Assembly: GCF_013009555.1 (NCBI RefSeq)
Contig: NZ_CP046176.1
Span: 5,425,501-5,489,500 of the forward strand
Length of the DNA: 64,000 nucleotides
Source: Phocaeicola dorei
GTDB taxonomy: Bacteria > Bacteroidota > Bacteroidia > Bacteroidales > Bacteroidaceae
Reading direction: 5' to 3'
Shown here: one piece after another, positions 42,528 through 64,000 of the stretch
Numbering within the stretch: the stretch's first letter is position 1
Layout of the letters: every line of letters starts with the position of its first letter
Notes under the pieces: model-generated
The model's input: only the letters and a program-made list of their open reading frames with translations
Databases searched by the model: none
What the model was told of the DNA's origin: nothing
Position numbers and translations under genes: made by a program

Positions 42528-44771
42528 CTATTTTATCTCATCCCACTTCGGTGGATTCACCTGCATCAAATGGCGGACAAAGAAATCATACCGCTTATGT
42601 TCGCCAAAAGCTTCCCCCATTGTATGATGTGCTCCGGGAATCACGACCAATTCAAAATCTTTATTCGCCTTAATCAATGCATTGACCACCTGCATAGTAG
42701 AGGCAGGATCTACATTATCATCCAACTCACCTACCACTAACATCAAAGGACGGCTCAACAGATGTGCATTTTCCACATTAGATCCTTCTTTATATTGATC
42801 TCCTACCGGATAGCCCAACCAAAGTTCATTCCACCAAATCTTATCCATACGGTTATCATGACAACCACAAGCTGAATAAGCCGCTTTATAGAAATCAGGA
42901 TAAAGCAAAACTGCATTTGTAGATTCCTGACCACCGGCAGAACAACCGTAAATACCTACCCTGTCCACATCCATATAAGGATATTTCCGTGCAGCCGCCT
43001 TCATCCAAGCAATATGGTCCGGCAAACCGGCATCTTTCAAATTCTTATAACATACATTCTCAAAAGCACGCGAACGGAAAGAAGTTCCCATTCCATCGAC
43101 CATTACGACGATAAAACCAAGTTCGGCCAAGGAAGTCATATTCCAGTCATAAGGACGGAAAGTCTTCGGAACATACTGGTCTCCGGGACCTTGATAAATG
43201 TATTCAATAACCGGATATTTCTTGTTCGGATCAAAGTTAGTGGGCCGGGCAATCAATCCCCACATATCCGTCTTGCCGTCCCGCCCTTTGGCAACAAATA
43301 CCTCCGGAGCGTTCCAACCTTCAGCCTCCAAGCGAGTGATATCAGCTGTTTCCAACGGCATCATCACTTTACCATCCCTGGCACTACGTAACACAGCTAC
43401 AGGAGCCTTATTCACCATAGAATAAACATCTACCAAATACTTCATATCTTCCGAAAACCAGGCACGGTGCATCCCTTCTTCGGGAGTAAGACAGGTAAGA
43501 CCTTTGCCATCAAAACCAATGCGGTAATAACGGATGAGATAGGGGTCCTCACCGGCTTCCATACCATTTGCCGAGAAATAGATCTGACGGTTATCCTCAT
43601 CTACCCGAAGCACTTCGCGTACATACCATTCTCCTTTAGTAATTTGATAATCGGGCTGTGCGGTAATACGGTTGTACATATAAAGATGATTCCAATTGTC
43701 ACGCTCACTCATCCATATCATCTGCTTGCCGTCTTTTAAGTCATGACGGAAATGACGGGTATAATTCACATATTTATCGCTGGTTTCTTCTACCAACGGA
43801 CGCACTTTTCCCGTTTCGGCAGAAAGTTCAAGCACTCTGTACACCTGATGTCCGCGCTGGTTATATTCAAAAGTCACGGCACGGCTGTCGGGATTCCATT
43901 CGGGACCATATACTTCATATTGTCGGTCGAACAATTCAGTAGAAGGAATAATGCTTCGTCCGCTTTCCACTTCATAGATGCAGGGCACTTTAAAAGGAAG
44001 TTCGTCTCCCGGCTTCGCATACTCCTGTTTGTGAAGCTTGGGCTGAAGCTGATCAGCCGGAGAAGATTCCACATAATAAACATAGCGCTTTTCCACCGGA
44101 CGGATCTTGCAGGAAGCCACCTTCTTACTGTCCGGTGACCAGCGGATGTAGGCTGAATAATAATTACCCAGTGTCCCGTCCAAGCTCAGTTGCTTTTCTT
44201 TTCCGGTAGCCACCTCCTTTACATAGATATTCTGATTTTTAATAAATGCTATCCATTTACCATCAGGAGACGGAACCGGCGATGCTGTCTTCTCATCATC
44301 CACCTCCATCCAATGCTTTTGCTTGGGAGGGAGAGGAAGCGCCCCTTCATTGACCAGCTGATTTTTCCGGGATGCATACATCCAACGTTGATTATTAAAC
44401 ACAAAGTGTAGCGTATCCAATCCCTTACTGACCGACAAATGCCCCAATGCAAGAGCTTCCGGCTTGACCTCTTTTCCGGATGCAGCACCCAGCGCCTTTG
44501 CCAGACGATGAGAATCAAACAATTCTTTTCTAGCTTTTTTATCTGCATCTACAGATACATACAGGCGTCCGTCCGGAGTATTCCGCACATACCAAAACTG
44601 ATGAGTACCCTCTATCCATTGCGGATTGACATTGGAATAGAAAACTTTATCCGCACTGAACTTCTCTTTCAATGCATAAGCACGCCGATAATCATCAGCC
44701 GTACCTTGAGCGATAGCCATGCCCCCACTAAGGAACATGGCTACCAGCCAACCTAACTTACCAACCTTCAT
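42528..44771 (-). CDS. S9-family (DPP-IV-like) peptidase within the glycan locus
   Basis: 747 residues with a signal peptide (GGMAIA-QGT). The N-terminal beta-propeller (SPDGKWIAFIKNQNIYV, WSPDSKKVASCKI) and C-terminal alpha/beta hydrolase match prolyl oligopeptidase family S9. The nucleophile elbow is GCSAGG (Ser611) instead of the usual GWSYGG; Asp684/685 in GELDDNVDP and His715/716 in GAHHTMGE complete the triad. A secreted dipeptidyl or Xaa-Pro peptidase is expected, but the unusual elbow leaves room for an esterase role. It is last gene of the GH97-GH43-GH127 operon, 11 bp after GH127, so peptide cleavage is apparently part of this locus. Confidence 0.82.
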   Translation of the reverse strand: MKVGKLGWLVAMFLSGGMAIAQGTADDYRRAYALKEKFSADKVFYSNVNPQWIEGTHQFWYVRNTPDGRLYVSVDADKKARKELFDSHRLAKALGAASGKEVKPEALALGHLSVSKGLDTLHFVFNNQRWMYASRKNQLVNEGALPLPPKQKHWMEVDDEKTASPVPSPDGKWIAFIKNQNIYVKEVATGKEKQLSLDGTLGNYYSAYIRWSPDSKKVASCKIRPVEKRYVYYVESSPADQLQPKLHKQEYAKPGDELPFKVPCIYEVESGRSIIPSTELFDRQYEVYGPEWNPDSRAVTFEYNQRGHQVYRVLELSAETGKVRPLVEETSDKYVNYTRHFRHDLKDGKQMIWMSERDNWNHLYMYNRITAQPDYQITKGEWYVREVLRVDEDNRQIYFSANGMEAGEDPYLIRYYRIGFDGKGLTCLTPEEGMHRAWFSEDMKYLVDVYSMVNKAPVAVLRSARDGKVMMPLETADITRLEAEGWNAPEVFVAKGRDGKTDMWGLIARPTNFDPNKKYPVIEYIYQGPGDQYVPKTFRPYDWNMTSLAELGFIVVMVDGMGTSFRSRAFENVCYKNLKDAGLPDHIAWMKAAARKYPYMDVDRVGIYGCSAGGQESTNAVLLYPDFYKAAYSACGCHDNRMDKIWWNELWLGYPVGDQYKEGSNVENAHLLSRPLMLVVGELDDNVDPASTMQVVNALIKANKDFELVVIPGAHHTMGEAFGEHKRYDFFVRHLMQVNPPKWDEIK

Positions 44772-44782
44772 TTTGAATTATT

Positions 44783-47188
44783 CTATTTCACTTCCCATTC
44801 AAACAAACCCGATGAATTATCGGCCGGCTGAACAATCTCCAGTTTTACCGCTTTTGTCTTTACCGGGTCAAAATTGACTGTATTCCCCGTACCTTTTTCC
44901 ACTCCATACTTATCCGCTCCACTCACCGGTTGCCACTGACCTTGTGCATCTTTATAGTACACCTTCCAACTTTGCGGTATGCGGCATCCTCCCCAAGGAG
45001 CATCATCATACCAATATACGGTAGCACTGGAAACAGTCGCTTCGGACGGAAACTCGTAGGATATCCATTCGGTAGTTCCCTGTTTGGGCCACCAATGGTA
45101 ATAGGGTACGGAACGGTCATTCTCATCTTTCGGTACCAGACGGTCATTAATGGCGGAGATGGATTTCACCTTATGCGAAGCATCCACTTTGCTTTCCGAT
45201 GCCAGCGTAGCAGGCATAGTCGGACGGGAAGCACTTAATTCCTGAGGCAACCATACAGCCATAGCACCTGCACCGCGGTGTGCCCAAGCATAGTAAGGGA
45301 TCAACGTCAGCTTTACATCAGTAGCCGTCAGACGACCTCTATCGTCATAACCCAGAATCTGTGCATCTGTTTTCAATTGGTTAATACCATACAGCAAATC
45401 CGGCTTTTCAACCACCTCGAATTGAGGAGTGCGGTTCATAAACACGCTCAGCACATCAAAATCATTATCCGGCCATTCCGCACAATATACGACAGGACCC
45501 CGTTCCACGGCAACACGTCCCCGGTCAGCCTCCACCTTGTTATTCGCCTTGACCGTACGCGGTTCCATGTCAAAATGCACTTCCACCTTGTCTCCCTTCT
45601 TCCAACGGCGGTCTATGCAGAAATAACCGTCCTTCAGTTCACTCTGTACCGGTTCCCCATTTACTTTCACTGTATAGCTCAAACGCTTTCCATCCGAATA
45701 AGTGTACAGGTCACTGGGAACTACCTGATTACGCACCCATCCCGGAATACGGATTTTCATTGTAAACTGTCCGGCATTGTTTTTGTTGACACCGATAGTG
45801 ACATCACCGTCCCAAGGATAATGAGTGGCCTGCTCCAAAGAAACAGCCTTACCCTCTACCTTCAAGTTCGAAGTATTGGACATAAACAGATTCACATACA
45901 CGTCCTTGTCCTTCACCGCATAAACATATCCCGGCAAAGAGGGGATAAAACGACAGACATTGGACGGGCAGCAGGCACAACCGAACCAAGGCTGGCGCTG
46001 ATGCTGGCCGATACTTTCCAACGGATTGGGATAGAAAAAGCCGCCTCCGTCCAATGATACGCCGGAAATCAGGCCATTATACAAAGTACGTTCCAGCACA
46101 TCATAATATTTGGACTCGCCGTGAAGCAGGAAAAGACGATAATTGACATACACATTGCCGATAGCCGCGCAAGTCTCGCAATAAGCCGACATATTGGGCA
46201 ACTCATAGTTTTTGCCGAAAGCCTCTCCGTTGCTGGTCGCCCCGATGCCGCCGGTAATATAATATTTCTTGCCTACAATATTATCCCAGATACGGTCGAT
46301 GGCATGAATATAAGCCGAATCCCCGGTCAATGCGGCAACGTCTGCCATACCGGCATACATATAAGCGGCACGCACGGCATGTCCCACCGCCTCATCCTGT
46401 TCCGTCACCGGCTTATGCGCCTGGCTGTATTCATCCGTACGGCTGGTATGTCCCCGCTGGTCAAGGAAGAATTTTGCCTGATCCAGGTATTTCTGCTGCC
46501 CCGTTACCAGATAGAGCTTGGCAAGCGCCATCTCGGCAATCTGATGGCCGGGCACACGGACTTGCTGTCCGGGACCGGAGCCTATCTCACGGCATACGCA
46601 GTCGGCATAACGGATAGCGATATCCAGAAAATTACGCTTCCCGGTCGCCTGGTAATGAGCGATGGCCCCCTCTACCATGTGTCCCAGATTATAGAACTCA
46701 TGGCTCAGTTCCTCCACCTTTTCCCAACGCTTGCTGCCCGCCCATTCGTGCGGATGCTTGGGATTCATGGTACGGCTGGTGTAAAGGTATCCGTCCGGCT
46801 CCTGTGCGGCAGCGACGATCACCAGCACGCTGTCAATGTATTTGGCCAGCTTTTTATCCGGATAAGTCTGCAACAGGTAACTGGCCCCCTCTATCGTCTT
46901 ATATACATCCGTATCATCAAAAGCCAGCCCGCCCACTTTGATAGTATCGCTGGGATGGGCCGCATTGATAAAATTCCGGTATCTTCCCGTCTCCTCACAT
47001 TTGCTGAAAGCCAGGGGAATGGTCACTTCACGGCTGGCCTTGAGACGCTGCCCCCAAAACGAGTCGGTCACTTTCACCGAAGTGAAAGGCACAGGGTCTA
47101 TAGGATAACCGTGTGACTGGTGTTTCACTTGTGCCTGACCGCCGGTTACGGCAGCCGCCAATAAAGTAGTAACTAAAAGTTTTTTCAT
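44783..47188 (-). CDS. GH127-type beta-L-arabinofuranosidase (periplasmic)
   Basis: 801 residues with an ordinary signal peptide (AVTGGQA-QVK). It is a DUF1680/GH127 enzyme. All active-site residues known from Bifidobacterium HypBA1 are present: Glu338 and Cys340 (YCETC) as zinc ligands, and CACC (404-407), where Cys406 is the expected nucleophile and Cys407 a zinc ligand. QEPDGYLYT and GHQIAEMALAKLY are family signatures. HypBA1 removes beta-1,2-L-arabinofuranose from hydroxyproline-linked arabinans; GH146 is a closely related alternative. A C-terminal beta domain (~700-801) follows. It is one of two GH127 genes in this locus. Confidence 0.85.
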   Translation of the reverse strand: MKKLLVTTLLAAAVTGGQAQVKHQSHGYPIDPVPFTSVKVTDSFWGQRLKASREVTIPLAFSKCEETGRYRNFINAAHPSDTIKVGGLAFDDTDVYKTIEGASYLLQTYPDKKLAKYIDSVLVIVAAAQEPDGYLYTSRTMNPKHPHEWAGSKRWEKVEELSHEFYNLGHMVEGAIAHYQATGKRNFLDIAIRYADCVCREIGSGPGQQVRVPGHQIAEMALAKLYLVTGQQKYLDQAKFFLDQRGHTSRTDEYSQAHKPVTEQDEAVGHAVRAAYMYAGMADVAALTGDSAYIHAIDRIWDNIVGKKYYITGGIGATSNGEAFGKNYELPNMSAYCETCAAIGNVYVNYRLFLLHGESKYYDVLERTLYNGLISGVSLDGGGFFYPNPLESIGQHQRQPWFGCACCPSNVCRFIPSLPGYVYAVKDKDVYVNLFMSNTSNLKVEGKAVSLEQATHYPWDGDVTIGVNKNNAGQFTMKIRIPGWVRNQVVPSDLYTYSDGKRLSYTVKVNGEPVQSELKDGYFCIDRRWKKGDKVEVHFDMEPRTVKANNKVEADRGRVAVERGPVVYCAEWPDNDFDVLSVFMNRTPQFEVVEKPDLLYGINQLKTDAQILGYDDRGRLTATDVKLTLIPYYAWAHRGAGAMAVWLPQELSASRPTMPATLASESKVDASHKVKSISAINDRLVPKDENDRSVPYYHWWPKQGTTEWISYEFPSEATVSSATVYWYDDAPWGGCRIPQSWKVYYKDAQGQWQPVSGADKYGVEKGTGNTVNFDPVKTKAVKLEIVQPADNSSGLFEWEVK

Positions 47189-47314
47189 GGTTATATCATT
47201 TAATTGTTATCGTCATATTCCGTGCCTGTTTTACGGAGGTGCAATTTACACATTCCGAACATAAAACAGGCTCCGTATTCCAAGCAATCCAGGTATATAA
47301 ATTCACCAAAATCA

Positions 47315-49723
47315 CTATTTCCGTCCTTGTAACGGTATATATTCATCCCACAACTTCAACGAGTGCAGATACCCCGTAAAAGGCCACTCTCCTTCCGCAT
47401 TCCGCCCCAAGGTCACAAACTGAGACGGTTTTACCAACAACTGGATGTCTTTTCCACTCACCTGTTCTCCATTGATATAGACCTGCTCCATGCGTCCGTC
47501 AAAACAGATGTAAATGTGCTGCCACCTGCCCGTCAGCTCCTTCATACCTTTATATCCCGCATCCTCATACCATCCGTAATGGTTGATCACCCCGCAGCGC
47601 GGTTCCGTACCGTTCACCAGCATGATCTTCTCCAGTTCGTCATGCAAGGTTGTAAAATCGGCTACACACTCATTCTCGGCTATGGAATCATTCAGCACCC
47701 ACGCCTCCAATGTATAGGGAGCATTGTCCTGCAAAGTAGCCGGCAAAGAGAAACTGGAACGGAACAACTGGCTGCCGTCAAAATGAAACGCCTTTTTCCC
47801 TTCCGTCTCCTTCACGACCACAGGAGCTTTCAAGGCCTCAAAATATCCTTTCACACCCCGGTTCGTCAAATAAGGAACGGTATCGCCGACAGCAAAATCA
47901 TCAGCAGTAATGCTCACCACCAAGCCACGTTTCCGACAGTCGGCAGCAGGCAGACGGACCACATCCGTAGCCGCGTCGTAAGCCCGTTCCGCCGGTTCCA
48001 GCTTCCAGTTATAATACCGCAAATTAGTAATAACCAACGGCTCATTGCCGCTGCGGAGCGAAATCATTCCCTGAGAGAGACAATGCTCCGTCTCATAACT
48101 CCGCCATTTCCCGGAACGGTAAACCAGTCCGCTCAGGGTATGTTCCTTGGACGGGGAAAGTAAAGAATGGCAATACTCCAATACAGTGCCTGGCTCCAGC
48201 ATCAACGCATCGCGTCCCTCTATACGGCAAGTACGCGCCGCACCTTCCTTCAAGACAAACGCACCGCCCAGCATTCCCTCATTATTCCGCCACTCGCGTC
48301 CATCCCAGTCGGCAGCGGTCAGTCCCAGCCATTGCTGGGGAAGCGCCTCTTCAATCCCCCCGAACACCTTCACGTTCCAGACAGCCCCTCCAAAACCGTT
48401 TTTCTGGCCGCCCGTAAAAGTAAGACGCACATAGCGGGCCTCCGCCTTGCCGAAGTCAACCATCGGACTGCCTGCCAAGTGGTTGTTCCGCTTATCAGCA
48501 AAAACAGACCAATGCTTGCCATCGACAGAAGTCTCTATCAAATACTGATAAAACTGGGTTCCATATTCAAACTGGGTCCAGACGGTCTGTATTTCCCGGG
48601 AACTCCCCAAATCTATCTCAAGCCATTCCTGCCCCATACCGCGAGGACGCCACAAAGTCCCGTTATTGTCATCTACGGCATATTCGGCGCGAAAATTATC
48701 ATCATAACAAGAAGAAGCCCTTACCCCGGCGCCCAATGCCAGATTCTCCGATTTCACCACCGAAGGAGCCAGTGCGCCTACCCCCTTGTGGGTAGGAATA
48801 ACCTTCCTGATGCTTCCATCCGCCGCAAACTCCATCTTATCCATGCAGAGCTGGCGGTGAAAGCCACGGTTGGAGTGCGGGTTGTCATGCCGGTGGTACA
48901 CTATATAATAGTCATCCCCTTCCTTCAAGATACTGTGATGTCCCGGGCCGTGCACCGTCCCGTCCTCATTCGTTTCCAGAATGCAGCCCTTATATTCGTA
49001 CGGTCCCAGCGGATGGTCCGAAGTAGCATACTGCACCCTGTAAGTATGGTCATGGCAAGAGCCCGAGGAATACATGAAATAATAGATTCCATTCCGCTTC
49101 AATACAAAAGGAGCCTCAAAAAAGTCAACCGCCTCCGTATTCGGTATGAGCCGCGTTTCCGTAAACCCCTTCAGGTCGGGAGTCATTTTTCCAGCTCCGC
49201 AACCGAAACCTTTATAGATTCCCCACGTTCCCCAATACAAGTACACGGAACCGTCATCATCTACAAAAGTCTGTCCATCCAGTGTAATCGCATTGGTCAC
49301 GAAGCGGTCGGGAACAAGCACCGCCTCGCTTTCACCCAGGATATTCTTCCAGGGTCCCCTGGGCGTCTCGCTCACCCCGCAATGAATGATACACGGCTGG
49401 CAATAAAAATAATAATACCTGCCATCCGTATGCCTGATCACATCAGGGGCCCATATCCAATGGCTGTCGGGCCAGTTCATGGGCATCAGCGTCCAGTTTA
49501 CAAAATCCTTGCTCGTCCACACCTGGGCCGGTCCGAATCCCGCACCGCTGCCGTCCGTAGTGGCATACATGTAATACGTGTCGCCAAACTTCTTTATCGT
49601 AGGATCGGCAAAGTATCCGGGAATCACAGGATTACCCGTCCCCGGCGCGTCATGCTTCTTGCGGGCAAACCCCGAAACCGCCCCCAGCAACAAAAAAGCG
49701 GCCACTAAGTATATTCTGTTCAT
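47315..49723 (-). CDS. GH43 enzyme with F5/8-type C and LamG-like domains
   Basis: 802 residues, signal peptide AVSGFA-RKK. A five-bladed GH43 propeller occupies ~30-320: base Asp40 (GYFADPTIKKFGDTYY), Asp94 in WAPDV, probable pKa-modulating Asp149 (TLDGQTFVDDDG) and acid Glu203 (FFEAPFV). An F5/8 type C (CBM32-like) domain follows (~328-455, ALGAGVRASSCYDDNFRAEY), then a linker and a concanavalin-like LamG domain (~640-795, PYTLEAWVLND, GRWQHIYICFDG). Family members act on alpha-L-arabinofuranosides, beta-xylosides or beta-1,3-galactans; the sequence alone does not decide. The gene starts 2 bp after the GH97 stop. Confidence 0.85.
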   Translation of the reverse strand: MNRIYLVAAFLLLGAVSGFARKKHDAPGTGNPVIPGYFADPTIKKFGDTYYMYATTDGSGAGFGPAQVWTSKDFVNWTLMPMNWPDSHWIWAPDVIRHTDGRYYYFYCQPCIIHCGVSETPRGPWKNILGESEAVLVPDRFVTNAITLDGQTFVDDDGSVYLYWGTWGIYKGFGCGAGKMTPDLKGFTETRLIPNTEAVDFFEAPFVLKRNGIYYFMYSSGSCHDHTYRVQYATSDHPLGPYEYKGCILETNEDGTVHGPGHHSILKEGDDYYIVYHRHDNPHSNRGFHRQLCMDKMEFAADGSIRKVIPTHKGVGALAPSVVKSENLALGAGVRASSCYDDNFRAEYAVDDNNGTLWRPRGMGQEWLEIDLGSSREIQTVWTQFEYGTQFYQYLIETSVDGKHWSVFADKRNNHLAGSPMVDFGKAEARYVRLTFTGGQKNGFGGAVWNVKVFGGIEEALPQQWLGLTAADWDGREWRNNEGMLGGAFVLKEGAARTCRIEGRDALMLEPGTVLEYCHSLLSPSKEHTLSGLVYRSGKWRSYETEHCLSQGMISLRSGNEPLVITNLRYYNWKLEPAERAYDAATDVVRLPAADCRKRGLVVSITADDFAVGDTVPYLTNRGVKGYFEALKAPVVVKETEGKKAFHFDGSQLFRSSFSLPATLQDNAPYTLEAWVLNDSIAENECVADFTTLHDELEKIMLVNGTEPRCGVINHYGWYEDAGYKGMKELTGRWQHIYICFDGRMEQVYINGEQVSGKDIQLLVKPSQFVTLGRNAEGEWPFTGYLHSLKLWDEYIPLQGRK

Positions 49724-53818: not shown

Positions 53819-55483
53819 TTAATATCCCGGATTCTGAACCAGATTTATATTACCATCCATGATACTCTTGGGTATCGGGAAAATGTCACAATGTTTGTCC
53901 GTCGGATCGGTCTTGGCATCCTTGCAGAACCATGATTTGCCATTATACACATTCTGTCCGCTGGTAAGACGGAAACGGATCAAATCCTGACGGCGATGGT
54001 GCTCGGCCAGGAACTCCCATCCCAGGTCGTCCAGCAGGCCGCCCAGCTCGATGTCGCTGCCTCCTTCGGTAGTGGTCACCCAATTATCCGCCTCATCCTG
54101 CTGTGCAATGTTCTCCCGGTGTCCGTAAGAATATACGCTGCCGCCTTTCAACTGGGTTACCGTACGTGTCGCCTTATCGGGATTCCCTTTGAACGCACGT
54201 TGCCTTACCTGAGTAACCAGGCTAGCGGCATCCTGTTCCGTCTCGCCGTTATATCCTCCCAGACGCAACAGGCACTCGGCCTTCATCATCAAGACATCGG
54301 CATAGCGGAAGAAAGGCACATCATCATAACTGGTTCCCCAGTCACCATCCTTTATCTCATACTTTACCAACCGGTATCCTTCCATCGGATAGCATCCCGG
54401 ATTGTCCGTACTGCGGATTTCATACGTATAGTTCAAAGGCTGGCCGTCCACATAAATGGTGTTTCCACTCTGGTCTTGCTGGACACCGCCGATCCAGCAG
54501 TCTGTATAACGGGTGTCATTATTCTTGTCATAAGTATCCAGGAACTGGGGCAAGGCGGCTCCGCCTCCTGTAGCCCAACCGGTAAACCCGAAAGTGGCAC
54601 GCCCGGCCTCGTTCATCCACAAATTGGCAAAATAATTGCCACTGGCATACAGATACTCAAACGGAATCCCGAAGATAATCTCGGGAGAAGAAGAGATGTC
54701 CTCCTTAAAGTTATCAGCATAATTCGGCGCCAGGCTGAATTTGTTCGATTCAATGATCACATTCAGCTCGTCAACGCATTTCCGATAGTAAGAATCGTCG
54801 GAATGGTCGTCAAACCAAGCATTGTGATTCAAATACATCTTAGCAAGAATCATGTGGACGGTATAGTTATTTATCTTTCCCATCTCCACCTCATCGCCAC
54901 ACTTGTCCTTTATGTCGTCCAGCTCAGAGATGATAAAATCCCATACTTCCTGCGGTTCAGCCTGTTCGGGAAGCCAGCCGTCGGGATGATCATAAGTGGT
55001 ATCCAAGGGAATATTACGGAAAAGGTCGAACAAAAGATAGTAATACAACGCACGGTAAGCACGTAGCTGGGCCACAGACTCCTCCGATTCCTGCACGGCC
55101 TCGTCCGCCAACAGCTTGTTGCACGCATTTATTCCCGAATAGGCGTTTGACCACAACCCACTGAAATGACCGATTTCGGAATGAAACGTATGCTCATGCA
55201 GATTGATATACAAATCACCCCAACCTACGCCTATCCGCAAAGGGATCACCCACATGTCCGTACAGATATCCAGGTCAGCGTACCCGTACCATGCCCAATA
55301 GAAATTGCGCAAGGAGGAATATACCGGCGCAAACATACTGGCGGCATCCTTTTCCGTAAATTCATATTTCTCGGACGCGATCTGGTTGTAAATGGTTTCA
55401 CTCAAATCTGTGCAGCTTCCCAAAGAAAGCATGCCGGCGCCTACCATTGAGTATAATAAAGACTTATATAATTTCGGTTTCAT
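53819..55483 (-). CDS. SusD-like outer-membrane glycan-binding lipoprotein
   Basis: 554 residues. The lipoprotein signal ends MLSLGSC-TDLSET (Cys24). TPR helices and typical SusD segments follow (LRAYRALYYYLLFDLFRNIPLDT, RYADVLMMKAECLLRLGG). The C-terminal region has LGWEFLAEHHRRQDLIRF and FPIPKSIMDGN. It binds the substrate of this locus at the cell surface together with the SusC encoded 12 bp upstream. Its ligand should be the arabinose-rich glycan or glycoprotein that the GH127/GH97/GH43 set attacks. Confidence 0.92.
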   Translation of the reverse strand: MKPKLYKSLLYSMVGAGMLSLGSCTDLSETIYNQIASEKYEFTEKDAASMFAPVYSSLRNFYWAWYGYADLDICTDMWVIPLRIGVGWGDLYINLHEHTFHSEIGHFSGLWSNAYSGINACNKLLADEAVQESEESVAQLRAYRALYYYLLFDLFRNIPLDTTYDHPDGWLPEQAEPQEVWDFIISELDDIKDKCGDEVEMGKINNYTVHMILAKMYLNHNAWFDDHSDDSYYRKCVDELNVIIESNKFSLAPNYADNFKEDISSSPEIIFGIPFEYLYASGNYFANLWMNEAGRATFGFTGWATGGGAALPQFLDTYDKNNDTRYTDCWIGGVQQDQSGNTIYVDGQPLNYTYEIRSTDNPGCYPMEGYRLVKYEIKDGDWGTSYDDVPFFRYADVLMMKAECLLRLGGYNGETEQDAASLVTQVRQRAFKGNPDKATRTVTQLKGGSVYSYGHRENIAQQDEADNWVTTTEGGSDIELGGLLDDLGWEFLAEHHRRQDLIRFRLTSGQNVYNGKSWFCKDAKTDPTDKHCDIFPIPKSIMDGNINLVQNPGY

Positions 55484-55495
55484 AATCTGGTAAAT

Positions 55496-58400
55496 TTAGA
55501 AAGTTAAGTTAAGACCAAAAGTAAATGAACGAATGGATGGATATTTGTCGCGATTGTCTATACCTGCATAGGTAGGATACGGATTTGACAACTCCGGATC
55601 AAGTCCGGAATAACCGGTTATGCAGAAAAGATTGTCACCGGACAAATAGGCACGGACATTCTTGATGTATTTGTTATTTTTAAACGGGAAATTATAACCG
55701 ATGGTCAGATTGGTCAACTTCAGGAAGTTACCATTTTCCAGGTAATAGCTTACCATAGTCTGCGGCTGTGAAGAAGACAAGGTGTATTGTCCGCCATAGG
55801 GTGCTTCCTCCACCGATTTCAAACGGTTGTAAGCATGAGAATTATTTTCGTAATAAGCACGGGGTTCATTCAGGATCTTAAATCCCAACTGGCTGGTGAA
55901 CTGCATGCTCAGGTCCCAGTTTTTATAAGTGAAGGTGTTGCCCCATCCCAAATACACTTTCGGCAATCCGTTGCCCAAATATTGGCGGTATTCATCATTG
56001 GTCAGGTAAGCAGTAGAGAACTCAACGACTTCCCCGTCCGGCTTTTCAATCAGGAACAGTCCGTTTTCCGACGCGCCGACAGACTTCAAGCCATAAAACT
56101 CACCCAAAGGACGTCCTTCCTCCATACGGTGTGTGCTTACACTGATCGGTTCTCCCAAGCCACCGGTATCCATATAACTGTTTGACTCATACATGTCATT
56201 AGACAAGCTTAACAATTTGCTGGCATTATGAGCTACCGTCACCACGGTTTTCCACTCAAAGTCCTTGGTCTGCACAGGAATCGCATTGATGGCTACTTCA
56301 ATACCCTGGTTGCGTACAGAGCCTCCATTGGCAAAAGTGTAACTGTACAAATTGGGCGGAGTAGGAACGCTGTAATTAAACAACAGGTCGGTTGTCTTCT
56401 TCCTGTATATATCAACAGATCCTCCTAAACGGTCATTCAAGACACTAAAGTCCAGACCTATATTATATTCCGTAGACTTTTCCCATTTCAAGTCCGGGTT
56501 CGGATTGGAAGCGACTTCCAGCCCCGGTTTCCATGTTCCCTTGTCGTAATAATAGGAACTTCCATAGTTATACCGCGTCAACGACATATAAGGATCATTG
56601 GGAATCACACCGGTAATACCGAATCCCGCACGCAACTTCAAGTTGTTCAGCCAGGTAATACCCTCCATAAATCCTTCATTACTGATGGTCCATCCCAAAG
56701 ATGCAGAAGGGAAAGTACCCCATTTGTTATTGTCGCCGAACTTGGACGACCCTTCCTGACGTACACTGACCAGCAAATTATATTTATTGTCAAACGCATA
56801 GCTCACACGTGCAAAGAAACCGATCAGCGTATTCTCGTTCTTATCACTGCCCATGCCAGCCTTACCGTCTTTCAACGCCTGGCCGAGACCTAAATTATGC
56901 CATTGATAGAAATCTGTCGGGAAATTATAGTTATTGGCATAGAAACGTTCATAAGTATAATACTGATAACTGTAGCCCACCAACGCATTCATACGATGCT
57001 TGCCGACATTCAAGTCATACTTGCTGGTCAGTTCCAGGTTGTCCGTACGTGTCTCGTCCTGGGTATGATAAGCATAACCGGTCCATTCATTCAGTTGGTT
57101 GCTGAAATAATCCGTTGTGTTATACCCTTTATCATGTGCATTAAAGCGGCTGGTAGCCACCATCAGATTGGTCTGCCATCCTTTGACCGGTTCAAAAGTA
57201 ACATTACCCGTCGCACGAGTCTCTTCATAGGTATAATTACCCAGACGCTCTTCCAGCATGCCGACCGGATTGTAGTAATAATTCACGTTAAAATCCTCAT
57301 TATAAGAACCGTCCTCGTTGTAAATGGGAGCGGTAGGATTACGCATAATCGCCTGACGGTAAATATTTGACTGATCGGTGGCCGTTGCATTGGTGGCACT
57401 GTTCTTATGCCATTTCTTCACCATATTCAGGTTGACTTTCAGCATATCGTTAAGCATCCAGTGTGAGACATCAAAACGCATACGGATATCTTCGCTGTAA
57501 GTGTTCATTATCACACCGTCTTCCTTGCGGTAAGTCACATCCGCCGAGTAAGTGGTCTGCTTGCTTCCTCCCGTTATATTGAAATTATGGTTGTGAGTAA
57601 AGCCGGTCCGGCTGACGGCATCCAGCCAGTCGGTATCATATCCCTTATCGGTAAAGTTTGTCTTGCCTGCACGTATATCCTCGGCAGTCATAAATTCCAG
57701 CTTTTTGCCGAACTGAGATGCAGAGACGTAACCTGAATAGGATGCAGTCGTATGCGACTCACGTTTGCCGTTCTGGGTAGTGATCAGGATAACCCCGTTT
57801 GCACCCCGCGTACCGTAAATGGCAGCAGCCGAAGCATCCTTCAACACATCAATGGAGGCAATATTTTCAGGAGCCACCGTGCTTAAGTCTCCTTCCACTC
57901 CATCAATCAGAATCAACGGCGTAGTGCTGCCGTTGACGGAAATGACACCGCGCAGGCGAATCGTGGAAGTCGCATTCGGGTCACCGGACCCCTTGGCAAT
58001 GCTCAATCCGGCCACCTTACCTTTAATCAGGTCCGCCGCATCCCCGATCTTACCTACCGTAAAATCCTCTGCTTTGACCGAAGCCACCGCACTGGTCACA
58101 TCACCCTTGCGCTGGGTTCCATAACCAATAACGACCACTTCGTCCATCACCTCGGTATCTTCCTGAAGGGTCACATCAATCTTCCGGTTATTCTTTACCT
58201 CAAACTCCTGGGTTTTATATCCAATGTAGGAAATTACCAATACAGACTGGGAGCCTTTTACATTCAGCCTGTATTTCCCGTCAAAATCGGTAATGGTACC
58301 GTTGGTCGTTCCTTTTTCCATGATATTAGCACCAATGATGGGTTCTCCCTTTCTGTCTTTCACCACACCGCTTACTGTTACAGTTTGCTGTGTAATTTCC

Positions 58401-58534
58401 ATTTTCATAGACTCTGCTGTTCCCTGAAGTGCAAATACAGGGCTCATCCCTGCACCCGCAATAAGGAAAAAACAGGTTGCGGCCTTTAGCAATGCTTTGC
58501 TGAACAAGGCCCGATTGTCATGTGTTTTCATCAT
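55496..58534 (-). CDS. SusC-like TonB-dependent transporter
   Basis: 1012 residues. The signal peptide is long and basic (MMKTHDNRALFSKALLKAAT start). The regulatory-like domain (VSGVVKDRKGEPIIGANIMEKG), plug start DEVVVIGYGTQ, plug signature RGVISVNGSTTPLILIDG and the C-terminal aromatic strand (LNLTF) are all present. It imports glycan fragments with the adjacent SusD. Its first codons and the 31-bp gap to the GH127 gene lie inside an inverted repeat shared with 63780-63907, where the 5' end of a second susC is found. The N-terminus is thus a recombination point. Confidence 0.93.
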   Translation of the reverse strand: MMKTHDNRALFSKALLKAATCFFLIAGAGMSPVFALQGTAESMKMEITQQTVTVSGVVKDRKGEPIIGANIMEKGTTNGTITDFDGKYRLNVKGSQSVLVISYIGYKTQEFEVKNNRKIDVTLQEDTEVMDEVVVIGYGTQRKGDVTSAVASVKAEDFTVGKIGDAADLIKGKVAGLSIAKGSGDPNATSTIRLRGVISVNGSTTPLILIDGVEGDLSTVAPENIASIDVLKDASAAAIYGTRGANGVILITTQNGKRESHTTASYSGYVSASQFGKKLEFMTAEDIRAGKTNFTDKGYDTDWLDAVSRTGFTHNHNFNITGGSKQTTYSADVTYRKEDGVIMNTYSEDIRMRFDVSHWMLNDMLKVNLNMVKKWHKNSATNATATDQSNIYRQAIMRNPTAPIYNEDGSYNEDFNVNYYYNPVGMLEERLGNYTYEETRATGNVTFEPVKGWQTNLMVATSRFNAHDKGYNTTDYFSNQLNEWTGYAYHTQDETRTDNLELTSKYDLNVGKHRMNALVGYSYQYYTYERFYANNYNFPTDFYQWHNLGLGQALKDGKAGMGSDKNENTLIGFFARVSYAFDNKYNLLVSVRQEGSSKFGDNNKWGTFPSASLGWTISNEGFMEGITWLNNLKLRAGFGITGVIPNDPYMSLTRYNYGSSYYYDKGTWKPGLEVASNPNPDLKWEKSTEYNIGLDFSVLNDRLGGSVDIYRKKTTDLLFNYSVPTPPNLYSYTFANGGSVRNQGIEVAINAIPVQTKDFEWKTVVTVAHNASKLLSLSNDMYESNSYMDTGGLGEPISVSTHRMEEGRPLGEFYGLKSVGASENGLFLIEKPDGEVVEFSTAYLTNDEYRQYLGNGLPKVYLGWGNTFTYKNWDLSMQFTSQLGFKILNEPRAYYENNSHAYNRLKSVEEAPYGGQYTLSSSQPQTMVSYYLENGNFLKLTNLTIGYNFPFKNNKYIKNVRAYLSGDNLFCITGYSGLDPELSNPYPTYAGIDNRDKYPSIRSFTFGLNLTF

Positions 58535-58649
58535 ACAGTTTTATTTAAAAGGTTTATATGTTCATTCAGTTTACTTTCCATTCAATCACCCCTCCCGAAG
58601 CTCCTTTCTGCAATTGTGCTGCAATTTTAAGCCCCTTTGTTTTGACAGG
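58518..58649 (-). repeat. Left long inverted repeat (GH127 3' end plus susC 5' end)
   Basis: Read on the minus strand from 58649, 81 of 82 bp are identical to the + strand from 63780 (last 27 GH127 codons). A short divergent spacer follows, then 42 identical bp spanning the susC ribosome-binding region and first five codons. The partner is 63780-63907. Confidence 0.9.
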
Positions 58650-61001
58650 GTTGAAATCCAAACTATTATAGCAATCTTTTTTTACAGTATATTCAGTTAA
58701 CGCCTCTACCTCTTTCCAACTTTCGCCTTCTTTATAATATAGTTTCCAGCTTTCCGGCACACGGAAATCTCCGTCATAATGGTCAAAATCCAACCAATAC
58801 ACTTGTACGTTCGATACGGTATAAAGCTGGTCGAATTCATAAGCCAGTGTTTCGACAGTACCGTTCTTCAGCCACCAATAGTGGTAAGGTTTCGAGATAT
58901 CCGATGAACGTTTGGGTTCCCATTGGTCATTTACCCCCCATGCCCATGTTTCCACTGAAGCCGATTCAGGAGCGTCTTTCTGTATGGGGGCTTGTATCAT
59001 CAAAGTACGTGCTTTGCTGGCGATGGTAGGTTCCGGAGTAGGACGAGCGCACTCGGCTGTTTCGGGAATCCATACGGCCATCTGGTCAGCACCGCGGTTG
59101 TTCCATGTAGAATAAGGAATTGCCTTGAATGGAACGTCTTTTACATTGCCGTTTCTTTCAACTTCTTTGGCTGTACCGTTCAAAACTATTACGCCATTCA
59201 GCAAATCAGCATGGAAAGAAGCCTCCATCGGAGTACCATCGGGGATGAATTTGTTGAATACAGTACTGTCGGCTTGGTCTTGTCCTTCCAAACAGAACAT
59301 AATAGGGCCCCGTTCTATAGCCAGTTTGCCATGATCATCCTCTACTTGGTCATTTGCTTTCACACGACGTACCTCCATAGGAAGATTGATTTCAACCACA
59401 TCACCCGCTTTCCAGTTGCGTACAAGGGTGGCATAACCGTCATATTGCTTCGCATTGACTTTGGAGCCGTTTACAGAAATGCTATAAGCCTGAGCCTTGT
59501 CTGTAAATGAGTAGAGGTCTGTGGGTACGGGAGCGTCTTGTGCCCATCCGGGAATACGCACACGCAAAGCAAACTCCTGTTCTTTTTCGGGAGTGACGGA
59601 AATACTTATCTTTCCGTTCCACGGATAGTCCGTAGTTTGTTCCACATTTATTTTATTGCTTTCCGTTTCAATATCCGCCTTGCTTTGGATATAGAGATTG
59701 ACATACACATCATTGCCTTGAGTAGCATACATATAATAAGGTACCGAGGCCACGAAACGGGTTATGTTGCCCGGACAGCAGGCACATCCGAACCAATGCT
59801 GGCGCTCATGCTGCCCCATGGATTCCAACGGATTGTCATAGAAGAACTTGTCACCACTGAGTGATACGCCCGAAATGACTCCGTTATACAACGCGCGTTC
59901 CAGCACATCCGCATATTTGGCATCTCCCGTAGCGAGGAACATACGATGGTTCCAATACACATTAGCTATAGAGGCGCAGGTTTCGCAATAGGCTGTGTGA
60001 TTATTCAGTTCATAGTTGGGACCGAATCCTTCACCTTGTGGACGAGAACCGATTCCGCCTGTGATAAAGAGTTTTTTGCCGGCCATATTTTCCCAAATAC
60101 GGGTTAAGGCATTGAAATAGGCGGTATCATGAGTCAAAGCGGCTACATCTGCCACTCCGGAGTAGAGATATCCGGCACGGACGGCATGACCTACTATCTC
60201 GTCTTGTTGCAGGATGGGCTTGTGATCCTGACTATATTCGCTCAGTTTATGTCCGTCAGAGCCTCTGCCGGTTTCCTCTACAAAATATTTGGCTGTCTGC
60301 AAATATTTCTCATCACCTGTCACCTTATATAGTTTGACAAGAGCCATCTCAGCGATAGGATGACCGCTGGGACGATGGATCTGTCCTTCGCCGGGTCCGA
60401 AGACCTGACATACCAGATCGGCATTTTTGATAGCTACATCCAGTAACGTACGTTTTCCGGTGGCGCGATAATGAGCAACGGCGGCTTCGTACAAATGGCC
60501 GCTATTATAGAGTTCGTGACTGTTGATTTTTTCCCAACGGTGCGTGCCCCACCAACCGGATAAACGGGTACATTGATTGGTTACACAGGTAGTAAGATAA
60601 CCATCCGGTTCCTGTGCGGCAGATATGATATGGATTACACTGTCCAGGTAGTGATCCAGTTTCTCATCATATTTTACGGCTAACGAGTAGGAAGCTCCTT
60701 CTATAATTTTATAGGGATCGGTATCGTCGAAAGAAAAGTCACCGCGATGTTCGCCTTTCATCAGACCACCCGCAATGGCAAAATTATCGAACCGGCCGTT
60801 CTTTTCACATTCTTTGAAAGCGGATGGGATGGAAACGGTGCGGTTAGTTTCGATGCGCGGTGTCCAGAAATTATCATCTAAATGAACTTGGGTGAAGGGA
60901 ACTTCTTTGATAGGGGCATCAGGTTGTGTATAAGGCGTACTACATGCACATACGCTTATTATAGCAATGCTGCTCCATACTATTTGCAATTTGTTTTTCA
61001 T
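58566..61001 (-). CDS. GH127-type beta-L-arabinofuranosidase (lipoprotein)
   Basis: 811 residues. It begins with a lipoprotein-like signal (IIS VCAC-STPY), unlike the 44783 paralogue, so it is probably membrane-anchored. The GH127 active site is intact: Glu340 and Cys342 (YCETC) and CACC (406-409, Cys408 expected nucleophile). EPDGYLTT, WGTHRWEKIN and GHPIAEMALVKLY are shared with the paralogue. A C-terminal beta domain ends GASGGVIEWKVN. It is first gene of the susC operon and lies wholly within the putative invertible segment; its last 26 codons are duplicated at 63783-63863, so inversion would still give an intact gene. Confidence 0.87.
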   Translation of the reverse strand: MKNKLQIVWSSIAIISVCACSTPYTQPDAPIKEVPFTQVHLDDNFWTPRIETNRTVSIPSAFKECEKNGRFDNFAIAGGLMKGEHRGDFSFDDTDPYKIIEGASYSLAVKYDEKLDHYLDSVIHIISAAQEPDGYLTTCVTNQCTRLSGWWGTHRWEKINSHELYNSGHLYEAAVAHYRATGKRTLLDVAIKNADLVCQVFGPGEGQIHRPSGHPIAEMALVKLYKVTGDEKYLQTAKYFVEETGRGSDGHKLSEYSQDHKPILQQDEIVGHAVRAGYLYSGVADVAALTHDTAYFNALTRIWENMAGKKLFITGGIGSRPQGEGFGPNYELNNHTAYCETCASIANVYWNHRMFLATGDAKYADVLERALYNGVISGVSLSGDKFFYDNPLESMGQHERQHWFGCACCPGNITRFVASVPYYMYATQGNDVYVNLYIQSKADIETESNKINVEQTTDYPWNGKISISVTPEKEQEFALRVRIPGWAQDAPVPTDLYSFTDKAQAYSISVNGSKVNAKQYDGYATLVRNWKAGDVVEINLPMEVRRVKANDQVEDDHGKLAIERGPIMFCLEGQDQADSTVFNKFIPDGTPMEASFHADLLNGVIVLNGTAKEVERNGNVKDVPFKAIPYSTWNNRGADQMAVWIPETAECARPTPEPTIASKARTLMIQAPIQKDAPESASVETWAWGVNDQWEPKRSSDISKPYHYWWLKNGTVETLAYEFDQLYTVSNVQVYWLDFDHYDGDFRVPESWKLYYKEGESWKEVEALTEYTVKKDCYNSLDFNPVKTKGLKIAAQLQKGASGGVIEWKVN

Positions 61002-61047
61002 ACTATATCTGTGTTTTTTATTTCAGTATCAACTATGTCAACAGATG

Positions 61048-61128
61048 CAAAGTAAGTGAACAAACCGATAAAAGGATGGAAGAAAAATCTATTATGCTGC
61101 GAAAATCGTCTTGAATATGACAAATATA
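61048..61128 (-). promoter_or_regulatory. Candidate promoters of GH127-susC operon
   Basis: Two -7-like boxes lie on the minus strand: TATATTTG (61121-61128, full consensus) and TTACTTTG (61048-61055, one mismatch, as before the GH97 gene). I cannot tell which is used. A weaker, reversed pair of motif copies (GGATGGAAGAAAAATCTA at 61074-61091 and a second half ending GTCTT at ~61112, 21 bp apart) lies between them. Confidence 0.4.
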
Positions 61129-61174
61129 TATATAATTTAATATTGCTGATTATCAGATGAATATACTATTATTG

Positions 61175-61216
61175 TAGACGATTTTTTTATTCTATTAGAC
61201 AATTGTTTTATCCTAT
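61175..61216 (-). promoter_or_regulatory. 21-bp tandem activator-type sites upstream of the GH127-susC operon
   Basis: Units 61175-61195 and 61196-61216 are directly adjacent 21-mers identical at 18 positions (TAGACRATTKTTTTATYC core, + strand reading). They share T-A-G-A-C-n-A-T-T-n-T-T-n-n-A-T-C-C with the pair before the GH97 operon, in the same orientation relative to the gene served. The rest of 61002-61378 shows no gene. Confidence 0.65.
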
Positions 61217-61378
61217 AAAGACAAAAATCAAGTGAATTTCTCTGTTCTTGAACTTAAATAGTTGGAGATACTTAATTCTTCTTAGAAAACCTCAACGGGG
61301 TTTGGTGAAACTTTCCTTCTCTGATAATATAAGTTAGATTGGCATCTCTTATTTAATAGAAAATTTAATGATATAAAT

Positions 61379-61990
61379 ATGATATATGCATATATTCGGG
61401 TTTCAACTGATAAACAGACTGTAGAGAACCAGCGATTCGAGATAAATCGTTTTGCCAAACAGAGGGATTTCCAGATTGATGTGTGGGTAGAAGAAACGGT
61501 TTCGGGAACACGGTCAGCCAAAGACAGAAAGCTTGGCGTACTATTGAAAAGAATAAAGAAAGGTGATACATTGATTGTGTCGGAGATTTCTCGTTTGGGA
61601 AGGAGATTGATGGAAGTAATGAGCATATTGAATGCATGTATGTTGAAAAATGTCATCCTACTCACGGTGAAAGAGAAATATGAGCTGGGAAATAATATAC
61701 AATCCCAAATATTGGCATTCGCTTTTTCCCTCTCTGCACAAATAGAACGTGACTTGATTTCCCAACGTACCCGTGAGGGACTTGCACGCAGAATTGCCTC
61801 CGGACAAAAGTTGGGACGTCCCATGGGAGGACATAACTCGAAATATAAACTTACGGGAAAAGAAGAAAAAATTAAGGCTATGCTGGAGGCGGGAACCAGC
61901 AAGGCGGAGATGGCGAGGAAATTGAAAGTGAGCAGAAATACACTGGCAGCTTTTCTGAACAGGAATGAGGCAGGGATTCATTCCAACTGA
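61379..61990 (+). CDS. Serine site-specific recombinase (DNA invertase/resolvase type)
   Basis: 203 residues. A resolvase/invertase catalytic domain spans ~1-140: nucleophile Ser9 in YIRVSTDKQ, the arginine-bearing GTRSAKDRKLG and EISRLGRRLMEVMSIL, and AQIERDLISQRTREGL, whose arginines complete the site. A C-terminal Hin-type helix-turn-helix (~165-195, SKAEMARKLKVSRNTLAAFL) binds DNA. It resembles the master-invertase type that flips promoters in Bacteroides. It sits between the long inverted repeats 58518-58649 and 63780-63907 and could serve that switch, or act in trans on sites such as 14081-14286. Confidence 0.9.
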   Translation: MIYAYIRVSTDKQTVENQRFEINRFAKQRDFQIDVWVEETVSGTRSAKDRKLGVLLKRIKKGDTLIVSEISRLGRRLMEVMSILNACMLKNVILLTVKEKYELGNNIQSQILAFAFSLSAQIERDLISQRTREGLARRIASGQKLGRPMGGHNSKYKLTGKEEKIKAMLEAGTSKAEMARKLKVSRNTLAAFLNRNEAGIHSN

Positions 61991-62744
61991 TAAAGGTGGT
62001 ATGTCTGTCATTTGTAATAAGAAGAGATAAAGCCTCTGATAGATTATTCTTACTCAAGTTTCGGTTTTAGCATAAAGTCAGGATATACATAAAGCACAAA
62101 AACGTTCTGTCACAGTAACATGCACATTACTAATCACTTCCTGTGTAAAAGTCTCTCAAATACCCCTCAATTGGTATGCCGGTGGCAAAACACATTCGTT
62201 TTTGGGGTGTTCGCATTCGGGAATTCCAGCGGACAGGATGTAGAGTCAGCCCCTCACTGCCTCCCGGCTACTCGTGGGTATCATAGTTCATACCTGACAG
62301 GACAGGATACTGTTTGCTTCGGCTACTGACCCCTGTTGCGTATGTAATAAGAACCCATTCCTATCGTATCTTCACTCCGCTCCGTTTGATATTTCACCTC
62401 AGTGAAGCAACTGTTCCACTAGGGTGAAAGCGGCTGTTCACCTAAGTGAAATCGCCTCTTCACCTGGGCGAAACAACAAATGCAGCAAGACAAAATACGC
62501 CATAGCTACGCTCTCTTGCAAAGAAGCGACCGCAACTATGGCACAGGAGTTAAAACGACCTGTATACGTTAAGCTGAATTTGACAGCGGAGAATGGCAAA
62601 CCGTTTCAGGGGAACTTGGAATGCATTCACACAGTATATCGTTGGTTTACAGTAAGATACTGCGCACAATTTGGAATGATAATGTACTGATACAGAAGAA
62701 ACTGAGACGAAAAATCATCGAAAATTGGCATCTTATCTTTGTAA
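61991..62744. other. Non-coding stretch with a repeat array
   Basis: I find no convincing gene in these ~750 bp. The only structure is the palindromic array at 62393-62473, a + strand TATCTTTG (62734-62741) and a 14-bp palindrome TTTGTAATTACAAA (62738-62751) at its right end. The frames open on the + strand run through the repeats and resemble nothing I know. Confidence 0.5.
62393..62473. repeat. Four palindromic ~22-bp tandem repeats
   Basis: TTCACCTCAGTGAA (62393), TTCCACTAGGGTGAAA (62414), TTCACCTAAGTGAAA (62437) and TTCACCTGGGCGAAA (62459) recur every 21-23 bp, each an imperfect TTCAC/GTGAA palindrome. The layout parallels the 22-bp array at 16503-16590 although the sequence differs. Confidence 0.65.
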
Positions 62745-63720
62745 TTACAAATGCGGCAAGAAGCAACAATTTTGTGCGGTTATGGCAAGAGTAAAACCAT
62801 GAACAAAATATTCACCTTTCTGCTTGTCCCACTGCGAGGCATAACGGTGCAGGCACCCGGCAATGTATTCAAAGTAAGGTTTCCATTTGCCATCATAAGC
62901 CAGCCCTGAGGCAAGCTTCCTCTTTTCATAACTGTCGAAAGTCAAGTCGTTTTCATGATAAGTATCCAGAATGTAGGCAAAGAGTTGTTCACGTACCACT
63001 TGGTTGGGGATGGTGAGTTTGGTTTCTCCTTTATGCATTCCGCTGATGGTCAGCATTCCGAAGTAGAAAAGCAATCAGTTCTATCAACTCGTCTACCGAA
63101 TGATTGAATTGGCACGTTGTGGAGTAATACTCCAGCATGTCCCGTACATCCTTTTCTGTGAATCCTGTCATTTCATTGAATTGTGGATTCAGCGTGTAAT
63201 TGGTGCCGATGTTGAATCCGCTGGTCAGGTCATCCATGGTAACCGGACTCACTCCCGTTATAAAACAACGCTTGATAGCATATACGTTCCGGCCTTTACA
63301 GTGTCGAAAAAACTGCGCAGGTAACCGGTGCCGTGTGTCTCGCTTCTATAATTGTCCAGGCATGAGGGTTCGGATAAAATCTTATTGGTGAAATGGTCGT
63401 ATTTATCCATAAAAAGATAAATGCTTTGTCCGGCTTTATAACATTCTTTGTACAAGTAATCCAACTGTTCCACAGCACCCCGTTTGGCGTTAAGCCCTTC
63501 CTTTATCCCTTGGGGGAGCATAGATATCACAAAAGAAGTTGAACTCGGTATTGCAATGTGCATCCAGTGACTGGCGGTACGAGTGTAATTCGGCATTTAC
63601 CACTGCGAAGTTCAGATAGATAATAAGATAAGAATTGCGTTCGGGAGTGGGGTGTTATCCATGGTAGTTTTATCCGTTTACGATAAAACAATACTGGGTG
63701 ACTCATATTAACATCTTCAC
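62745..63720 (-). pseudogene. Decayed AAA-ATPase/PD-(D/E)XK-type ATP-binding protein
   Basis: Three or four minus-strand frames together read as one damaged protein. 63258-63596 has IYLFMDKYDHFTNKILS, the Walker B region of the common Bacteroides AAA-ATPase-like/DUF1703 family, where DEYDHF is usual. 63031-63252 has SPVTMDDLTSGFNIGTNYTLNPQFNEMTGF, the next conserved block, and 62745-63074 carries the C-terminal nuclease-like part. Frameshifts separate the pieces, and the N-terminal Walker A part is missing where the right inverted repeat begins. The intact family is ~500-570 residues. Its truncation next to the repeat fits repeated rearrangement here. Confidence 0.65.
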
Positions 63721-63779
63721 ATGCCAAGCTTAAAATAAAACATGCAGTAATATATGTGTATAATTATTTTCTTCTTCTT

Positions 63780-63907
63780 CCTGTCAAAACAAAGGGGCTT
63801 AAAATTGCAGCACAATTGCAGCAAGGAGCTTCGGGAGGGGTGATTGAATGGAAAGTAAACTAAGAATATAAACCTTTTAAATAAAACTGTATGATGAAAA
63901 CACATGA
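63780..63907 (+). repeat. Right long inverted repeat (GH127 3' fragment plus second susC 5' end)
   Basis: Inverted partner of 58518-58649. Similarity starts sharply at CCTGTC (63780); the sequence to the left is unrelated to the GH127 gene. It continues at protein level into the second susC. Confidence 0.9.
63783..63863 (+). pseudogene. Last 26 codons of a GH127 gene (fragment)
   Basis: Reads VKTKGLKIAAQL, QQGASGG and VIEWKVN then stop. It differs from the end of the 58566-61001 gene by one residue (Gln for Lys) and a TAA instead of TGA stop. It has no gene body upstream. It is the tail that the GH127 gene would acquire if the segment between the inverted repeats were flipped. Confidence 0.85.
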
Positions 63908-64000
63908 GAACCGGGCCTTGTTCAGCAGGGCTTTGCTGAAGGCTACCACCTGTCTTTTCCTTACTGCGGGTGCAGGAGTCAGTAGTGTATGGGCAGCACC
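63891..64000 (+). CDS. Second SusC-like transporter, 5' end only (runs off window)
   Basis: ATG 63891 begins MMKTHENRALFSRALLKATT, then CLFLTAGAGVSSVWAA, 36 codons in view. This is a variant of the signal peptide of the susC at 55496-58534 (MMKTHDNRALFSKALLKAAT). It has no promoter of its own in the preceding sequence, which is a GH127 fragment and a minus-strand pseudogene, so it is probably silent in the present orientation. Whether a full susC-susD pair follows cannot be seen. Confidence 0.8.
   Translation, partial: MMKTHENRALFSRALLKATTCLFLTAGAGVSSVWAA

Follow-up and report, generated by a model that had tools for sequence, protein, structure and literature searches.

The inversion of SusC/SusD genes is already known from Bacteroides fragilis and B. 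thetaiotaomicron, as the published summaries describe it. In B. fragilis, Tsr0667 inverts three SusC/SusD clusters together with nine other regions (PMC4747536; cited in PMC12632263), and Mpi inverts 13 regions, seven of which are polysaccharide promoters (PMC4747536, PMC12632263). In outline, the nutrient-receptor shufflons of B. thetaiotaomicron place several receptors under one transcription factor, and one of them shifted after phage exposure (PMC12548429). Phocaeicola dorei itself is described as having invertible regions whose orientation differs in bowel disease, and the same paper names the surroundings of susC/susD and upxY as the classes affected most overall (PMC10939037). The locus analysed here lies in a 64,000-nucleotide stretch of P. 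dorei DNA (GCF_013009555.1, contig NZ_CP046176.1, positions 5,425,501 to 5,489,500; hereafter the window), where genes for a glycosidase of family GH127 and a serine recombinase are enclosed by inverted repeats, with a susC operon on either side. We found no published description of this locus at the level of titles and abstracts, and an overlap with the P. dorei regions of PMC10939037 is possible. The locus is probably a dedicated two-position DNA-inversion switch that selects receptors in a pectin-type polysaccharide utilization locus.

In the proposed mechanism, the local Mpi-family serine invertase would act on a pair of 32-bp sites, one at the inner end of each repeat, and recombine them. 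Because these sites lie within the coding tail of GH127, about 22 of its last codons would fall beyond the crossover and remain on each flank. A flip of about 5.16 kb would carry GH127, together with its upstream control region and the invertase, in a single block, and in either orientation a complete GH127 would be rebuilt, the next genes of the operon being susC1-susD1 or susC2-susD2. The enzyme would stay available and the receptor/transporter pair would be swapped. Flipping in cells is a strong prediction from these features; we also infer the exact crossover bases and the silence of whichever susC operon is unlinked. The benefit would presumably be a change of substrate range, or escape from phage or immunity. 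The elements on which the mechanism depends are the following.

58566..61001, minus strand: GH127-family glycosidase, 811 amino acids (PF07944, PF20736, PF20737), intact after in-silico inversion
61379..61990, plus strand: Mpi-family serine DNA invertase, 203 amino acids (PF00239; NF009949)
58430..58670, minus strand: left inverted-repeat arm (GH127 tail, spacer, susC1 head), from repeat search and gapped alignment
63759..63995, plus strand: right inverted-repeat arm, from repeat search and gapped alignment
58617..58648, minus strand: left copy of the proposed 32-bp recombination site, within GH127 codons, identical to the right copy, its exact limits presumptive
63781..63812, plus strand: right copy of the proposed 32-bp site, from genome pattern search and comparison with the related genome G066
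63780..63863, plus strand: orphan GH127 tail, 27 codons and a stop, from alignment; completes GH127 in the inverted state
55496..58534, minus strand: susC1, 1012 amino acids, left operon, currently behind GH127 (PF13715, PF07715, PF00593)
63891..64000 in the window, to 67058 in continued numbering, plus strand: start of susC2, 1055 amino acids, from contig extension

The repeat is made of two adjoining inverted pairs, 58430-58559/63866-63995 (130 nt, 85%) and 58568-58670/63759-63861 (103 nt, 89%). Gapped alignment of the left arm against the right revealed an 82-bp block in which one base differs, then a spacer containing one mismatch and two indels of 2 nt, and a block identical at 42/42 positions, beyond which the heads of susC1 and susC2 no longer match. 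A reading made from this DNA alone (the sequence-only reading) had noticed that the GH127 tail and susC head recur in inverted orientation, and the alignment returned the same figures (81/82 and 42/42). The 32-bp inner part of the repeat occurs exactly twice in the 5.6-Mb genome, with up to three mismatches allowed, and the backwards-read control occurs nowhere in it, which excludes a chance origin of the repeat. A 23-bp site pattern is likewise confined to the two arms genome-wide at up to three mismatches. The inverted repeats flank a segment that carries its own linked recombinase gene, one of the features by which phase-variable invertible segments are recognized.

We inverted bases 58634-63795 (5162) in silico, the crossover being assumed in the GGGG of the 32-bp site. 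In the resulting sequence susC1 is unchanged, and GH127 is read forward as 811 amino acids, with K799Q as the single change, ending at 63863, 27 bases before susC2. The same inversion in P. vulgatus leaves its 811-amino-acid GH127 unchanged, followed 31 bases on by an intact susC of 1015 amino acids. GH127, susC1 and susC2 all stay open after the inversion, giving functional genes in both orientations. Since the inversion rebuilds the 811-amino-acid GH127, the orphan tail is the missing GH127 end for the other orientation. The proposal of the sequence-only reading that a flip regenerates an intact GH127 linked to the second susC thus holds in two species. Its orphan tail also stands, although not the size and start given for it (26 codons, 63783-63863), which become 27 codons and a stop from 63780.

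The serine recombinase noticed in the segment belongs to an invertase family: it scores 328 bits against NF009949, labelled 'master DNA invertase Mpi family serine-type recombinase', above the NCBI curated cut-off of 272. It also matches PF00239 (E 2.3e-32) and, in PHROG, the family of DNA invertases. Of the proteins with solved structures, two DNA invertases are closest to it in sequence, and resolvases come next. S9 and R72-L73-G74-R75 are invariant across six aligned relatives; we take them to be the conserved catalytic serine and RLGR region. Elsewhere in the P. dorei genome, the recombinase has two weak matches (32% and 24% identity). In genome collections holding one genome per species, it was matched in 14 of the 61 genus genomes, P. 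dorei included (E <=1e-20), and in 22 of the 299 family genomes (E <=1e-60).

The complete switch was found in four of the 61 genus genomes, namely P. dorei, P. vulgatus ATCC 8482, P. sartorii JCM 17136 and Bacteroidaceae bacterium IMSAGC_004. Compared with P. dorei, the recombinases of the other three are 98-99% identical and the GH127s 95-97%. As far as the contigs show, all four keep the GH127 tails in frame and with a stop on both flanks, the tail in P. sartorii being visible only past a contig break; in P. dorei, indels at the tail end turn TGA into TAA and the stop is kept. The IMSAGC_004 segment stands alone as a 5884-bp contig whose ends form a perfect inverted repeat of 55 bp, a 5805-bp contig of P. 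sartorii ends at the repeats, and in both drafts other contigs end at each susC head. Such contig ends are expected of an unresolved inverted repeat and are not in themselves proof of flipping.

The layout recurs in a fifth genome, G066, where an 80%-identical recombinase and a 1113-amino-acid GH127-family gene lie between divergent operons of the susC1/susD1 and susC2/susD2 types. The inner end of its repeat contains a 33-bp stretch resembling the 32-bp site, with a score matched by 2 of 2000 shuffles; the stretch was picked after inspection, and only the P. dorei sequence was shuffled. The two may share descent, judging from this resemblance, and the remainder of the GH127 tail is not recognisable in the G066 repeat. 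The right-hand operon of P. vulgatus encodes a 1118-amino-acid GH127-family enzyme (L024:15849-19205) with the domain make-up of the G066 segment enzyme, so that such enzymes occur both within and outside the movable parts. In P. faecalis, two susC genes diverge from either side of a 67%-identical recombinase, and the repeats measure 226 bp (85%) and 70 bp (94%). Apart from the recombinase, the interval separating the long susC frames contains just a 106-amino-acid susC-head frame, and since one N falls in that interval, an assembly join there is possible. The P. faecalis locus (L083:8619-10467) and a second IMSAGC_004 locus (L084:1-1144) form another type of switch, with 65-67%-identical recombinases beside susC genes and a near-perfect palindrome, GTTTAAA-GGGACG-TTTAAAC, within the susC head; the P. 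faecalis repeats enclose the recombinase.

Twelve GH127 orthologues occur in loci without the switch. The next gene is of the susC1 type in 10 of them and of the susC2 type in one (G001), and the remaining one (G049) has no susC. The same enzyme has thus partnered both receptor types, and the switch combines them. A gene for a hybrid two-component system (HTCS) regulator adjoins GH127 in seven of these 12 loci, is one gene off in two, and was not seen in the stretch available for the other three.

Extension of the contig to the right, the check named in the sequence-only reading, revealed that a complete susC-susD pair follows. The P. dorei genome is a single contig of 5,625,488 bases, and past the window the right operon continues with intact susC2 (1055 amino acids), susD2 (590), a DUF6055 protein (446) and an HTCS regulator of 1328 amino acids with propeller, kinase, receiver and AraC-type domains. 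Because susC2 is intact, the concern that the right-hand susC might prove a truncated pseudogene just past the window falls away. The structure of the earlier inversion-switch model, with an intact susC2-susD2, a rebuilt GH127, an enzyme of the invertase family and the same architecture in other species, is therefore upheld.

The comparison of P. dorei with P. vulgatus separates stable from changing parts. Identity is 99.2% for the HTCS regulator, 98.5% for the recombinase and 97.0% for GH127, and 99% for the rubrerythrin-like and SulP neighbours. Among the left-hand enzymes it is 96.6% for the second GH127, 89.8% for GH97 and 84.3% for GH43, and it falls to 72.9% for susC1, 70.9% for susD1 and 37.8% for the DUF4859 protein. 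In P. vulgatus, the susC on the right shares 49% identity with susC1 and 31% with susC2, its susC/susD pair being of another type than susC2/susD2 of P. dorei. Thus, the movable block and the HTCS regulator are stable, the left-hand enzymes are intermediate, and rapid change or replacement affects the receptor pairs and the DUF4859 protein.

Several observations weigh against the switch. Both single-contig genomes, P. dorei and P. vulgatus, show GH127 joined to the left susC, so that inversion in cells is a prediction and not an observation; of the four switch genomes, the assembly runs through the repeats in just these two and breaks there in both drafts. A search of viral contigs for the other orientation found no exact match to a 36-base part of the repeat. 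No clear palindrome was found in the P. dorei repeat, and its resemblance to the palindromic site of the P. faecalis and IMSAGC_004 susC loci is not significant (163 of 2000 shuffles); the G066 repeat does not resemble that site significantly either (769 of 2000), and the best 34-bp dyad sits in one G066 arm (11 of 16 arm positions), the other arm having 9 of 16, elsewhere. In addition, substitutions outside the 32-bp site are common to both tails in IMSAGC_004 and present in one tail only in P. sartorii. The shared ones suggest that homologous exchange between the arms also acts.

These substitutions, which point to exchange beyond the site, are also what favours inversion of the segment by RecA-type homologous recombination of the long repeats, the invertase acting elsewhere or not at all. 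We regard this route as improbable, since G066 and P. faecalis, too, have a relative of the recombinase placed between susC genes that diverge and are accompanied by inverted repeats, and the part of the G066 repeat that resembles the 32-bp site is its inner end. The common orientation of the two single-contig genomes would also be expected of a frozen relic, in which a susC2-susD2 cassette, still carrying part of the GH127 that once adjoined it, entered beside the present GH127 in inverted orientation, leaving the tail as a scar with no inversion now; G001, which lacks the switch and has GH127 followed by a susC2-type gene, shows a plausible donor arrangement. However, the frame and stop of the tail are kept in four species, in P. 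dorei despite indels at the stop, all four switch genomes have an intact invertase at 98-99% identity, and the arms are near-identical over the tail although the adjoining susC heads have diverged, all of which makes a relic unlikely. The family name of the recombinase raises the idea of a global enzyme that mainly flips other segments and for which this locus is a minor or chance target, as Mpi is outlined to invert 13 regions in B. fragilis (PMC4747536). With both the 32-bp and the 23-bp site patterns found only at these two places in the genome (up to three mismatches), this explanation is very improbable. A dedicated receptor-selecting switch therefore remains the reading that we favour.

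Apart from GH127 and the invertase, the segment and the left operon include the following.

61047..61110, minus strand: footprint upstream of GH127, a GAyxATTTT element and a TTTG box, from alignment of 14 of the 16 orthologous upstream regions
62745..63596, minus strand: broken AAA-ATPase/PD-(D/E)XK gene inside the segment, unnamed in the sequence-only reading
53819..55483, minus strand: susD1, 554 amino acids, left operon (PF07980 SusD_RagB)

Both elements of the footprint are common to all 14 aligned regions (G052 and G062 omitted, some start codons chosen by eye) and lie inside the movable segment. From consensus sequences, we take the GAyxATTTT element to be an HTCS operator and the TTTG box to be a -7 box, the P. 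dorei box deviating at one base from what we assume to be the consensus, TAnnTTTG. A scan for sigma-70-type promoters gave six sites against 4.4 expected. Together with the domain matches, the conserved footprint bears out the earlier description of a segment holding GH127, regulatory sites and a serine recombinase. The broken ATPase gene, whose IMSAGC_004 counterpart is open (582 amino acids, L081:230-1978), seems to be a passenger. Aceric acid hydrolase, an NCBI family, was considered for GH127; since the match (495 bits) is far under the cut-off of 950, no substrate is claimed.

The left operon comprises susC1, susD1, a DUF4859 protein, GH97, GH43, a second GH127, a peptidase and a pectate lyase, a gene set that points to a pectin-type polysaccharide utilization locus. 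The HTCS gene, the SusC/SusD pairs, the glycosidases (GH127, GH97, GH43) and the pectate lyase occur together, as in HTCS-controlled loci of this kind. The stretch at 38759-49723 of the window encodes the pectate lyase, GH43, the second GH127, a prolyl-oligopeptidase-type enzyme and an Sde182-like protein, which suggests pectin side chains as the substrate.

The wider family of the recombinase bears on its origin. We mapped 34 recombinase loci, six of which are the susC/GH127 loci; the other 28 are at 64-77% identity, 16 of them supplied by the viral collection, and contained no recombinase-spanning inverted repeat at the threshold used. Relatives at 66-77% (L125, L127, L128, L201-L213) lie on phage-like contigs or contigs of the viral collection, some near tail genes, and the neighbours at the four loci tested (L125, L127, L128, L211) gave phage tail-measure, weak tail-fibre or terminase matches. 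Such phage-like relatives are a possible source of the invertase. A check of short flanks at 30 recombinase loci found susC at three, GH127 at two (P. dorei and P. vulgatus) and neither in 25. More distant Mpi-family relatives (L281, L282, L288, L291; 56-58% identity) adjoin 31-41-bp inverted repeats about 0.7-0.8 kb apart, which differ in sequence from the P. dorei repeat and by eye look coding; they may belong to a switch of restriction or methylase specificity.

When about 100 relatives were placed in a tree, the susC-linked recombinases formed two groups inside one clade, the support of 0.998 being that of the common clade. One group contains P. dorei, P. vulgatus, IMSAGC_004 and G066, and the other P. 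faecalis and the second IMSAGC_004 recombinase. Because other relatives also fall within this clade, the tree suggests that the recombinase was recruited to susC pairs twice.

Taken jointly, these results lead us to a tentative proposal, to which we give slightly less than an even chance, that the locus is a modular receptor platform. An invertase with close relatives in gut phages would have become a dedicated switch whose movable block is the control region, the enzyme and the invertase, with the site hidden in the reading frame of the enzyme, which is rebuilt at each flip. The flanking SusC/SusD pairs would serve as interchangeable slots, diverging or being substituted from one species to the next, with the block and the HTCS regulator remaining at 97-99% identity, and recruitment of the recombinase to susC pairs would have occurred repeatedly. 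Exchangeable receptors beside a stable block would be consistent with phages or immunity exerting selection on the receptor and not on the enzyme.

If the segment flips, a common gut bacterium keeps one polysaccharide-degrading enzyme under one control region and swaps the receptor, a large surface protein that phages or immune cells may recognise. The locus offers two states testable by polymerase chain reaction, has an invertase of its own and a candidate regulator, and carries receptors that have been replaced naturally from species to species; it could therefore serve to disentangle selection acting on substrate uptake from that acting on receptor exposure. Since its repeats are about 5 kb apart, it may escape surveys of short-segment inversion, judging from common tool settings.

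None of the descriptions that we found has an Mpi-family serine enzyme dedicated to choosing receptors, an enzyme gene moving with the control region, recombination sites within that gene's coding tail and a spare copy of the tail on the opposite flank, or receptor slots that can be replaced. The Tsr0667 shufflon, as described in PMC4747536, is alike in that inversion changes the expressed SusC/SusD pair, SusC/SusD genes lying at the recombining junctions in P. dorei as well. Tsr0667 itself we take, from its name, to be a tyrosine recombinase, whereas the P. dorei locus has a serine enzyme inside the segment, and the moving part is the control region with a glycosidase and not the receptor genes. 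The B. thetaiotaomicron shufflons likewise have several receptors under one transcription factor, but a glycosidase travelling with the promoter is not mentioned in the summary of that system (PMC12548429). Mpi, as summarised in print, shares the NCBI recombinase family and the inversion of a control region; in P. dorei, however, the site is at one locus, the segment measures about 5.2 kb, and the choice is between two operons instead of on and off. The Gin/G segment of phage Mu represents a further type, in which an invertase gene accompanies a segment that joins a common part to alternative receptor-related parts. The P. dorei locus resembles it in this joining, and in the occurrence of recombinase relatives in phage-like contigs, but its payload is a bacterial utilization operon.

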